From Bacteroidales bacterium (lineage in GTDB: Bacteria; Bacteroidota; Bacteroidia; Bacteroidales; JAIORY01): a DNA stretch of 34,575 nt. A program made the translations under genes and the position numbers. The stretch is taken from contig DAOVNY010000003.1 of NCBI GenBank assembly GCA_030630005.1, positions 1 to 34,575 of the forward strand. Direction: 5' to 3'. Under the pieces are notes generated by a model. It did not search any database and was not told where the DNA came from. It worked only from the letters and a program-made list of their open reading frames with translations. Position 1 is the first letter of the stretch. Every line of letters begins with the position of its first letter. This document shows, one piece after another, positions 3,238-29,497 of this stretch.

Positions 3238-3499
3238 ATTTTTATTTTTATTATAAAATGACTGAAATGACTGAAATTTAAAAATATCAATTCTTGGGTT
3301 CACTTCGAAAAGTTAACAAAAAGAAAATGCCACTAAGACACCAAGACTCAAAGAAACACAAAAAAAATCAATTATAAATATTTCTTTCTCCATCACTCCA
3401 TTACTCCATTTATTTCCCATATTTCCCTTATTTCCCTTACGACCAGAGGGAGTCCGTATGGATTCCCAATTTCAAATTTCCATTGCAAATTATTACTGA

Positions 3500-7933: not shown

Positions 7934-8007
7934 ATTTATTTTTTAATCTGTGAATCTGTGGCTATTTTTTATATAATTTTTCGCAGTGGACTCAATCTTA
8001 AATCAAA

Positions 8008-24974: not shown

Positions 24975-27482
24975 CTACTCCTTAAACACAACATTATCAA
25001 CTTTGTGAACTTCATAATTCTTATACCTTTTAATATTCCAGTAAATATTCTCGAAACCATTCATATTTATTTGTTTATCAAAATAATAATTTGTTTGAAG
25101 AAGTGGAGGATGATAATAAGGAAGGCATTCCTCAAAATCTTTTCCAAATTTCATAAGTGCATTGAAAAAATACCATCCAATATCAAAACCAGTATATGCC
25201 AGATTATTTGGTTCGGTTTTATATTTACTTCTGAAACTGTCAATAAATCTTTGCACACCCTCATTATTATAATCAATAAAAGCAGAAGAAAATGTATGAA
25301 AATCAAGATTTACTAACATTTCCGTATCCAAATCTCTAATTTTATCCCATTGAGGCAAGCCAATCAATTGGATATCAAAAGTGTCGCGAAGAATATTTAA
25401 TCTTGAAAGAATATCAGTTACAAATGATTTATCATCTGAAAAAATGATAATAATATTTTTTCGTTTAACAGATGCATTTTCAATTATTCCATAAATACTG
25501 TCACGGGAATATATTATTTCGGTAATTGAATTATTAAAAGTGATAGTATCGGGTAATAATCCCAGTGTGTCGTTATAATACAAAGTACCTTCAAATGCTA
25601 TACTGTCCATTATTTCGCCTTCGGCAAGACTTGTATCCCTGACAGAACATTCGGCAAGAAGATTATTCAGATAAAAGGTTGAAACTTTAATACTGTCAAC
25701 AATAATTTTATTCAGGGTATCAGAAAACTCTTCAAACACCTTAGATTCTTTATAATGATTATGTCTCAACAAAAATATCTTCGAATCAGTGTAAGTCTCC
25801 GAAATATATGCTTTCATTTGTTCTGTTTGTTCCTGTATTGAGGGCTGAACCTTAAAAACATAAGGATTATTAAAAATTATCTCCTGTCGTTGAGCTAAAG
25901 GATTTACAATTCTGATTTTAAAAAGACGCGCAAAATTGGCAGCAAGTGTAAAACTTTCGCTATACAAAGGTCCAATTATTAAATCCATATTAATGAGCAA
26001 AGGATCCTGCAAAACCTTAATGGTTTTTGTAATATTCTGATCAACATCATAAATATGGAGATTTAGTTTTAAGCCCATTTTTTCAAGCGAATCTACTGCA
26101 AGCATCACCCCTTCATACATCTGGACAAAATGAAACGAAGGGCTTTTATCAAATTTTTTCAGATCATCAAAATCTTCAATATTCAAACTATCAATTTCTT
26201 CGAGATACAAAGGCAGCATTAAAGCTACATTATATGTTTTTTCGGAGTTTTGTGAGTTTGCAAAACAGTTTAAACTATCATAATTTGTGATTTCCCTTTT
26301 AACAATAATTTTCCGAAGCAGGCTTGTATCGGGTATATAATCAGGTTCGGGATCGGGCTTAACCGGAATTCGCACATAATCACCTTCTCTGACAACTCTA
26401 TAAACTCCCGGATTCATATCTTCTATTTCTTCAACTGCAAGTTCATATTTACGGGCTAAACGGCGTAAACTTATCCTATTACGTTCTACTTTGTGGAAGA
26501 TGTAGTTTTTACTATTTTTTTTTTGAGGGATTTTTATTTTTTGTCCTTGAGAAATTCCGTGATCTAATCCGGGATTAAGGCTTTTCAATTCTTCAATACT
26601 CACTTTGTATTTAAGTGCTATTCCATAAAGGGTTTCGTATCTACTAACTGTGTGAATCGTATAATTTTTTTTCTTATCTTGATCAACTTTCACATTTTCT
26701 ATTTCAGCAACTTTCAAAATAGAAGCACCTTCGGGTATTTTAATAATCTGACCTATACTAATATCCGTACCTAAAGAAGGATTAGCTTTCCTTAATTCAT
26801 TAATTGGGACAGCATATTTTCTGGAAATCCTGTATAGATTTTCTTTTGCCTTAACAACATGATTAAAATACTTTTGATCTTTTTGTTTTGGCAGATATGT
26901 TGTTTTTGCAGGTTTTTGAATATCAGTTGTTACTTTTGGTTTAGTTTTTTGTGGCTTAAAAACATCAATCGAAGTTTTTGGTTCTGTAATTACTTCATCA
27001 TTCTGCATACTAACCGGAATCTTAATATATTCTCCTTCCCGCAAAGGCACACGAACATCCTGATTAGCATATTCTATATCTCCGATCGGAACCATATAAA
27101 TTTTTGAAATCTCCTGAAAAGTTTCACCTTTTGTGGCAACATGAAAAAAGTAATCAAAATTTTTCATGGTAATTGATCTGGATATTTTTGCTTCGCGACT
27201 GGTAACAGGTATCTTTAATATTTGTCCAAGCCCGATACTTTCTTTTGAACCCGGGTTTTCAAAAATTATATCTTCAACAGGGACAGAATAAACCTTTGAA
27301 ATTGAATATAAAGTATGACCTTTTTGAACTTCGTGCATATAATAAGACTTCCCGTTGATAAATTTAACAAGATCGGATTTCATAATTGGATTTTGACCCT
27401 GCACCTGTGAAAGCAAAACGGTGTTAAAACAAATTAACATTGACAAAATACCTAAGAATCTTTTAACTAACGAAGTATGCAT
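24975..27482 (-). CDS. Five-LysM protein fused to a periplasmic-binding (amino-acid ABC receptor-like) domain
   Basis: Five LysM units (HEVQKGHTLYSISKVYSVPVEDI..., HVATKGETFQEISKIY..., HVVKAKENLYRISRKY..., HTVSRYETLYGIALKY..., HKVERNRISLRRLARKY...), then VALMLPLYLEEIDS...LIIGPLYSESFTLAANFARLFKIRIVNPLAQ. Confidence 0.85.
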   Translation of the reverse strand: MHTSLVKRFLGILSMLICFNTVLLSQVQGQNPIMKSDLVKFINGKSYYMHEVQKGHTLYSISKVYSVPVEDIIFENPGSKESIGLGQILKIPVTSREAKISRSITMKNFDYFFHVATKGETFQEISKIYMVPIGDIEYANQDVRVPLREGEYIKIPVSMQNDEVITEPKTSIDVFKPQKTKPKVTTDIQKPAKTTYLPKQKDQKYFNHVVKAKENLYRISRKYAVPINELRKANPSLGTDISIGQIIKIPEGASILKVAEIENVKVDQDKKKNYTIHTVSRYETLYGIALKYKVSIEELKSLNPGLDHGISQGQKIKIPQKKNSKNYIFHKVERNRISLRRLARKYELAVEEIEDMNPGVYRVVREGDYVRIPVKPDPEPDYIPDTSLLRKIIVKREITNYDSLNCFANSQNSEKTYNVALMLPLYLEEIDSLNIEDFDDLKKFDKSPSFHFVQMYEGVMLAVDSLEKMGLKLNLHIYDVDQNITKTIKVLQDPLLINMDLIIGPLYSESFTLAANFARLFKIRIVNPLAQRQEIIFNNPYVFKVQPSIQEQTEQMKAYISETYTDSKIFLLRHNHYKESKVFEEFSDTLNKIIVDSIKVSTFYLNNLLAECSVRDTSLAEGEIMDSIAFEGTLYYNDTLGLLPDTITFNNSITEIIYSRDSIYGIIENASVKRKNIIIIFSDDKSFVTDILSRLNILRDTFDIQLIGLPQWDKIRDLDTEMLVNLDFHTFSSAFIDYNNEGVQRFIDSFRSKYKTEPNNLAYTGFDIGWYFFNALMKFGKDFEECLPYYHPPLLQTNYYFDKQINMNGFENIYWNIKRYKNYEVHKVDNVVFKE

Positions 27483-27624
27483 ATTTATTTCTGTGAGAAA
27501 TTCAAAAAAACAAAACCAAAAATAATAAAATTTCTGTTATGTAAACGAAAATATTTAATAAAAATTACTTGATAAATTATTAATTGGGGAATCCATGTAA
27601 ACGTATTGTGGTCGTATGAGTATT

Positions 27625-27648
27625 GGAGTGGTGGAGTGGTGGAGTGGT
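27625..27648. repeat. 8-bp tandem repeat GGAGTGGT x3
   Basis: Read directly; same 8-bp register as GAGTAATG (complement of 5685-5740) with two A/G changes. Confidence 0.9.
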
Positions 27649-27649
27649 G

Positions 27650-27844
27650 AGTCCACTCCGAAAAGTGCTTTGGGCTAAAGCCCCTTATGTTTGTTTAGAT
27701 GTTTATATCCACGTCCTAAAGAACGTGGCAATTCAAAAGTTATTGCAATTCAATGAATTACCCTGCCATTTATGGCAGGGGTAAAAAAAATTATACAGAA
27801 GAAAATGGACTTTAGTCCATAATAAATTGCTTTTCGGAGTGACT
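27650..27844. repeat. Four-hairpin mosaic element bounded by inverted repeats
   Basis: Ends AGTCCACTCCGAAAAG (27650-27665) / CTTTTCGGAGTGACT (27830-27844); internal stems GGGCT/AGCCC, CCACGT/ACGTGG, CCCTGCCAT/ATGGCAGGG, ATGGACT/AGTCCAT. Confidence 0.85.
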
Positions 27845-27914
27845 TCATTATTCCAACCATCCTCCAACAATTACCAACAATTACAACTAATTACAATAAA
27901 TTACAACAAACCAC

Positions 27915-29444
27915 CTATTCCCACTCAATAGTTGCAGGAGGTTTTGAGCTGATATCATAAACAACCCTGTTTACTCCTTTCACCTTATTTATTATGTCGC
28001 TCGAAATTTTCGCCAGAAATTCATAAGGCAATTGCGACCAGTCGGCAGTCATACCATCGGTTGAGCCAACAGCCCTCAAGGCAACAACATTTTCATAAGT
28101 TCTTTCATCGCCCATCACACCTACAGATTGAACGGGTAAAAGTATTGCACCTGCCTGCCAAATTTTATGATAAAGACCGTTTTCTTTCAATCCTTCAACA
28201 TAAATATGATCAACATCCTGCAAAATTCTAACTTTTTCATTTGTTATTTCTCCGAGTATTCTGATACCAAGTCCCGGTCCCGGAAACGGATGTCTGTTTA
28301 AAATATCAGGAGACATTCCAAGTGCATTTCCAATTTTTCGAACTTCATCTTTAAAAAGAGAATTTAAAGGTTCAACGATTTTAAGTTTCATAAAATCGGG
28401 CAAACCGCCAACATTATGATGAGATTTTATGGTAGCTGAAGGACCGTTAACCGAAACAGATTCGATAACATCAGGGTAAATTGTACCCTGTGCCAACCAT
28501 TTTACATCTTGAATTTTATGAGCTTCGTCATCAAAAACTTTGATAAAAGCATTTCCAATTATCTTACGTTTTTTCTCGGGGTCGCTAACTCCTTTCAAGC
28601 GATTAATAAAAAGATCTTTTGCATCAACACCTTTAATATTCAGTCCCATGTGTTGATATTGATCGAGAACTGATTCAAATTCATATTTCCGCAAAAGTCC
28701 GTTATCAACAAAAATACAATGCAGATTTTTACCAATTGCTTTGTGTAAAAGAACTGCCGCCACAGAAGAATCAACTCCACCCGAAATTCCGAGTACAACT
28801 TTATCATTTCCAAGCTTTTGTTTTAAACCGGAAATTGTAGTTTCAATAAAAGATGAGGGAGTCCATGAACCACCACATCCGCAAATATCTGAAACAAAAT
28901 TTCTTAACAATATCTTACCTTCTGTCGTATGATAAACTTCAGGATGAAACTGAATACCATAAGTCTTCTCATTTTTGATATGATAAACAGCAAACTGTAC
29001 ATCTGAAGTCCCTGCAATAACTTCATAGTCATCGGGTGCATTTAAAATTGTATCGCCATGCGACATCCATACCTGCGTGCCTTCACTTAATCCTTTAGTC
29101 AATTCGTTTTCCGAATTTATATTTGAAAGATTTGCCCTGCCATATTCACGAATTTCCGATGGAAGCACTTCTCCCCCGCATTGTTGCACTATGTATTGTG
29201 CACCATAACACACTCCAAGTACGGGATACTTTTTTCTTATTTTTGAAAGATTAATTTGAGGTGCATTTTTATCACTCACCGAAAACGGACTACCTGATAA
29301 AATAACACCTTTTATATTTTTTGTCATTTCCGGTATTTTATTATACGGATGTATTTCGCAATAAACATTTAATTCCCTCACTCTGCGTGCAATAAGTTGA
29401 GTATATTGAGAACCAAAATCTAAAATTAAAATTATTTCTTCCAT
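27915..29444 (-). CDS. guaA: GMP synthase (glutamine-hydrolysing)
   Basis: [75 protein letters not shown]-terminal [10 protein letters not shown]. Start at MEEIILIL (29444). Confidence 0.98.
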
Positions 29445-29497
29445 TTTGCAAAGATATTGATTTTTGTTAATTTTACATCGAGAAAAACACAAACATC

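Follow-up and report, generated by a model that had tools for sequence, protein, structure and literature searches.

A REPIN-like hairpin cassette probably nested within an IS1182-like miniature transposable element of a Bacteroidales genome

The subject of this report is a 198-bp intergenic element in a 34,575-nucleotide stretch of DNA (hereafter the window), taken from contig DAOVNY010000003.1 of a Bacteroidales bacterium (assembly GCA_030630005.1), a metagenome-assembled genome (MAG) of 2.26 Mb in 231 contigs that is 85% complete. We interpret the element, with a probability of roughly 0.87, as nested non-autonomous mobile DNA, in which a cassette of hairpins resembling REPINs, the inverted pairs formed by repetitive extragenic palindromes (REPs), lies inside a miniature inverted-repeat transposable element (MITE) related to IS1182-like insertion sequences (IS). 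This interpretation is built on direct observation of the frame and its target-site duplications (TSDs), of autonomous parent IS, of the independence and covariation of the cassette, and of cassettes flanking Y1 transposase genes.

The element occupies the gap between guaA (27915-29492, minus strand; GMP_synt_C and GATase) and a LysM gene (24975-27482, minus strand), in agreement with a preliminary description made from the letters alone. That description had also claimed inverted ends enclosing four hairpins with TAAA or TTTA centres, and all of these parts are present in the sequence, with three corrections: the inverted ends extend over about 17 bp instead of 12, the stem of H2 contains one mismatch, and H3, described with a TT loop and a TTTA core, is indeed a hairpin but has an 8-bp stem and a TTTA loop. 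The features are as follows.

27649..27846, no strand assigned: whole element, MITE frame with four-hairpin cassette, 198 bp, recognised by its repeat copies and its fold
27649..27665, plus: left terminal inverted repeat (TIR) GAGTCCACTCCGAAAAG, 17 bp, an exact match to the consensus TIR
27830..27846, minus: right TIR, variant GAAGTCACTCCGAAAAG with three mismatches; the same variant occurs at C179:6055
27672..27683, plus: hairpin H1, outer type, GGGC-TAAA-GCCC, the outer hairpin of the cassette class-wide
27709..27728, plus: hairpin H2, inner type, CCACGTCC-TAAA-GAACGTGG, one mismatch; its stem covaries
27761..27780, minus: hairpin H3, inner type in opposite orientation, CCCTGCCA-TTTA-TGGCAGGG
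27805..27820, minus: hairpin H4, outer type in opposite orientation, ATGGAC-TTTA-GTCCAT, with a weak terminator-like site on the minus strand
27624..27648, plus: short tandem array TGGAGTGGT adjoining the element, a typical landing site of the TIR family in the genus

The right end reads CTTTTCGGAGTGACTTC, an imperfect complement of the left TIR, and the mismatch in H2 is a C.A pair in the window copy, the stem being perfect (GGACGTGG) in sister copies. As single-stranded DNA the element folds at −35.9 kcal/mol, against −16.5 ± 2.8 in shuffled sequences (z = −6.9). When the 34.6-kb window was scanned for perfect stems of at least 4 bp, with at least three GC and a TNAA or TTNA centre, only H1, H3 and H4 were found, with 0.57 expected window-wide. 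No open reading frame (ORF) of at least 80 aa lies inside the 198 bp, and the DNA of the element has no match in plasmid and phage collections.

The ends belong to a widespread family. A TIR search of the own genome gave 46 matches, against three in a backward control, and the 17-bp TIR, allowing at most one mismatch, is present in 63 of 295 genomes of the order (two matches in the backward control), with a maximum of 201 matches in one genome. Exact matches in named GTDB genomes fall mostly in Bacteroidales, Saprospiraceae and other Bacteroidota; isolated matches outside Bacteroidota may be due to chance. An exact 6-bp target duplication of the form ANNNNT borders 65 of the 121 paired TIR elements with enough flank (2.2 expected), and conservation at the ends of these elements is nearly all in TIR positions 1-17. 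Interiors within this one TIR comprise four hairpins (~197 bp) or three (154 bp), or else one of two palindromes, GCCACnAAGACAC...GTGGC and CACAGATT. At least one TNAA-type cassette hairpin is found in 15 of 123 TIR elements, where 0.15 would be expected. Since several of these hairpin-bearing TIR elements belong to other genomes (for example at L172 and L180), capture of hairpins by the frame appears not to be unique to the window species. Two degenerate single TIRs were also noted in the window, at 7977-7993 (minus) and 3296-3312 (plus), adjoining remnants of CACAGATT-type and GCCAC-type interiors, and at one locus (L247, G174:C134), in a genome with more than 200 TIR matches, TIR elements are nested or adjacent within ~450 bp.

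Among the first loci, TIR pairs 0.45-8 kb apart were only chance or composite pairs and yielded no parent IS. ORFs lying just inside unpaired TIRs were then clustered, and one recurring transposase emerged. Three parent IS were delimited, each with the TIR at one end and a diverged TIR at the opposite end.

G275:C77:6665-8493: 1829 bp, TSD ATCATT/ATCATT
G229:C36:71229-73151: 1923 bp, TSD AAGATT/AAGATT
G222:C29:58371-60229: 1859 bp with one internal stop, TSD AAGGTT/AAGATT (5/6 match)

Their transposases (561-579 aa) contain DUF772 (PF05598) above cut-off; a PDB search with the DDE transposase gave no match. The TIR is present in 10 of 12 genomes carrying this transposase and in 53 of 283 others (Fisher p = 5e-6). 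Because these IS share both ends and target duplication with the frame, we regard the frame as a MITE: it combines TIRs, a length below ~300 bp, lack of coding capacity, a family TSD and parent IS with the same ends. No report of the TIR string, nor of a hairpin cassette of such kind inside a MITE, was found in open papers.

Homologous copies, for which the preliminary description had proposed a search and whose absence, like a lack of stem covariation, it had named as refuting, do exist. The MAG holds four full and about six partial copies of the unit. The full sister copies (C122, C119, C201) are 96.5-98% identical over their full length, and many contigs end in partial copies, probably because the repeat interrupted assembly. 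Three further copies of hairpin parts (L010, L012, L013) are without a complete frame, and in the two of them that span the larger part of the cassette, identity to the window is only 74-76%, so that it is the framed version that was recently amplified. Arrays of a similar kind (TGGAATAAT/ATTCCATTA) also surround other copies, as their joined flanks show. Short intergenic tandem arrays (TGGAGTAAT-like and TTGTAATTGG-like) are common in the genus, as at 27624-27648 and 27870-27905 of the window and in contigs C10, C47 and C266 of the congener G001, and are frequent landing sites for the TIR family. A different IS with ends AGACTGTGTGAAAAC sits exactly in the middle of the inner hairpin at three loci of the own genome (L046, L048, L071; contigs C179, C56, C128), its junctions being formed by CCACGTCCTTTAG and CCACGCCCTTAAG abutting the IS, with an apparent CTTTAG duplication; this IS seems to target these hairpin loops.

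The cassette leads an existence of its own. Of the 395 genomes of the class, 15 contain the pair GGGCTAAAGCCC - spacer - CCACGnCCTnAAGGnCGTGG; the backward control gave none, and at every class locus listed, the own genome excepted, the cassette stands outside the TIR frame. Covariation of the stems, proposed earlier as a check, is evident: among 31 distinct cases, the free stem position forms a Watson-Crick pair in 28, and each of the four pair types is represented; shuffling gave 12.2. The typical order is outer-inner-(inner)-outer, with TAAA centres to the left and TTTA or TTCA to the right, and four-hairpin cassettes lacking the GAGTCC frame are present in the same order (G013; L035, L040). 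The four-hairpin interior is thus a second mobile element, separate from the frame. Around the cassette at L040 (G013:C13) stands a different inverted repeat, TTAATTCACAAA...TTTGTGAATTAA, which may represent a second family of frames.

A likely partner for the hairpins was found in a clade of HUH transposases. In G343, two inverted cassette copies bracket a Y1_Tnp gene, and in other genomes the double-hairpin unit adjoins, on one or both sides, a further five Y1 genes belonging to this clade (flanked loci L286, L290, L293, L298, L299 and L302). In a protein-only test, the order was searched with the Y1 alignment alone and TNAA/TTNA hairpins were sought within 220 bp of each gene; they were present at 22 of 24 parsable clade loci, 15 of them on both sides, while shuffled flanks gave none and other Y1 genes, used as controls, showed a one-sided hairpin at 2 of 10. 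The closest hairpin listed on each side has a TTTA or TTCA centre upstream (17/18) and TAAA or TGAA downstream (18/19), which is the orientation seen in the window, and the stems vary freely. The clade proteins are single-domain and carry the signature Y---Q--HH (YIxNQEEHH). Control genes share this signature, so the hairpin association marks a clade within the signature group. Like REPs and REPINs, these hairpins flank a Y1 gene, are dispersed in copies and form two units in inverted orientation. The clade proteins lack the YIxxNP catalytic motif of canonical RAYT (TnpA_REP), and inspection of both strands revealed no GT[AG]G tetranucleotide at the 5' foot of H1-H4; for these two reasons we call the cassette REPIN-like instead of a GTAG REP.

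The Y1/RAYT genes of the own genome were considered as well but are not established as the cognate enzymes, since their hairpins (GCCTGCTAAAGCAGGC; GACGGGTTAACCCGTC; CTCCAGATTTTTAAAATCTGGAG) differ from H1-H4. Two of these loci have features of their own. At L032 (C45:3349-3675), an open frame of 1193 aa that resembles a restriction/DNA-methyltransferase enzyme includes, in frame, a Y1_Tnp domain with GACGGGTTAACCCGTC hairpins, and at L033 (C49) a RAYT-type Y1 gene with the motif YINHNP lies between CTCCAGATTTTTAAAATCTGGAG hairpins, a different hairpin family.

The advice in the preliminary description to look for a RAYT or an IS proved sound on both counts: an IS1182-like IS shares the ends and a Y1 HUH clade the hairpins. 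The two could in principle be one system, with the ends belonging to the Y1 element itself. Y1 chemistry is not known to produce target duplications, and the 6-bp TSDs do not fit it; the DDE transposase gene is bounded by the same TIR, cassettes beside Y1 genes are without the 17-bp TIR, and hairpins of this type are absent from the majority of TIR-family interiors. Although RAYT-like genes with TIRs in place of REPs have been reported under the names TIRYT or TIRtron (PMC3733652), we therefore consider a single transposition system very improbable here.

The same gap can be compared in the congener G001, in which the flanks are 94% (guaA side) and 89% (LysM side) identical to those of the window. 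There the TIR of the window element encloses a GCCAC-type interior instead, in an element of 152 bp bordered by a clean TSD (ACCATT/ACCATT). Within the MITE model, two interiors at one gap might reflect an exchange by recombination between the TIRs instead of two insertions. The identity of TIR, gap and flanks combined with different interiors speaks for such an exchange, as do the mismatched TSDs of the window copy, which gene conversion would leave. However, the gap holds short tandem arrays that are preferred as targets genus-wide, which makes two independent insertions plausible. Both courses of events are possible, the exchange being, if anything, the less probable.

The congener also bears on the alternative that the hairpins act as structured RNA, or at the 3' end of mRNA by ending or stabilising guaA messages, with mobility being incidental. 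The preliminary description had left the choice between a composite repeat and a structured noncoding RNA; the former held, as a TIR frame with a REP-like cassette, while the latter gained no support, the element having no Rfam match and its copies behaving as mobile DNA, with target duplications and with enzymes whose substrate is DNA. An RNA function would suit the location between two co-oriented genes and the terminator-like, though weak, H4 with its T-rich tail on the minus strand, and REPs elsewhere have been reported to stabilise mRNA and to cause termination (PMC6006769). Nevertheless, copies lie at unrelated places, loop centres and orientation are common to the hairpins and the Y1 transposase flanks, and the gap between guaA and the LysM gene can do without the four hairpins, because the congener has a different interior there. 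Taken together, this makes an RNA element improbable, if somewhat less so than a single Y1 system.

Several observations weigh against nested mobile DNA of the proposed kind. The window copy is flanked by AGTGGT and ATTATT and thus has no matching TSD, and a search of G001 with the joined flanks for an empty site returned only repeats and one partial flank, but no clean empty site. The best NCBIfam model for the parent transposases, IS1182 (NF033551), scores 82-84 bits against a cut-off of 270, and because this is well below the cut-off the family name must be read as approximate. The own MAG, with its 85% completeness, yielded no IS1182-like transposase and no close Y1 clade member; the IS1182-like transposase was not found in G001 either. 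Finally, 2 of the 24 clade loci are without TNAA/TTNA hairpins.

According to the nested model, the framed element would most likely have been multiplied within the genome by a DDE transposase of IS1182-like type, acting in trans on the TIRs and supplied by an IS that is now absent from the own genome or unassembled. Its outer layer comprises the 17-bp TIRs with 6-bp ANNNNT target duplications, and its inner layer two inverted double-hairpin units of an outer GGGC-TNAA type and an inner CCACG..-TNAA type. This interior would go back to a hairpin cassette that owes its spread to a Y1 transposase recognising single-stranded hairpins. We infer that the MITE is moved by the DDE enzyme, that the hairpins are cleaved by the Y1 enzyme and that the frame took up the cassette. 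By default, the element is taken as selfish DNA in an intergenic gap; a role in the expression of guaA or the LysM gene is possible but unsupported.

If so, one 198-bp unit joins two transposition chemistries, double-strand DDE and single-strand HUH, and offers a candidate substrate for a Y1 group, subclass 1.2, left without one in the literature (PMC6006769). The proposed sequence rule (TNAA/TTNA centre, free covarying stems and orientation relative to the gene) would account for a type of hairpin that is common in Bacteroidota genomes and has had no explanation. In a broader proposal, to which we give even odds, TNAA/TTNA double hairpins are the cognate repeats of an orphan HUH clade that has the subclass 1.2 signature and is distributed across Bacteroidota, and the IS1182-like MITE frame serves as an all-purpose carrier, taking up repeats of this sort and exchanging them at fixed sites. 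If one TIR does enclose interchangeable interiors throughout the phylum, it would be a useful system for studying how MITEs gain new contents.

Compared with known systems, the cassette shares with REPINs/BIMEs and the REPtrons of RAYT (TnpA_REP) the inverted pairs of short hairpins, the intergenic dispersal, the flanking of a Y1 HUH gene and stems that vary by family. It differs in the absence of the GT[AG]G foot, in its double-hairpin units with TNAA/TTNA centres and in an associated protein with Y---Q--HH in place of YIxxNP. The clade resembles TnpA_Y1 subclass 1.2 of Bacteroidota and Cyanobacteria (PMC6006769) in its signature, short length (~145-150 aa), low copy number and occurrence in Bacteroidota, an assignment by signature and not by phylogeny; whereas that subclass is reported by Quentin et al. 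2018 (PMC6006769) to have, as a rule, no secondary structure of the typical IS200 kind at its ends, the clade described here has consistent flanking hairpins. The parent IS correspond to the IS1182 family, and to IS5-like DUF772 transposases, in having one DUF772 gene (~560-590 aa) between inverted repeats, but fall far under the curated cut-off and have a 6-bp ANNNNT target duplication. Lastly, the frame is akin to other bacterial MITEs (PMC10969869), such as BrickBuilt of P. gingivalis (PMC4596501), in its 15-30 bp TIRs, TSD, noncoding and intergenic nature and parent IS elsewhere, and stands apart from them in that one TIR pair encloses many unrelated interiors phylum-wide, including a second mobile repeat.
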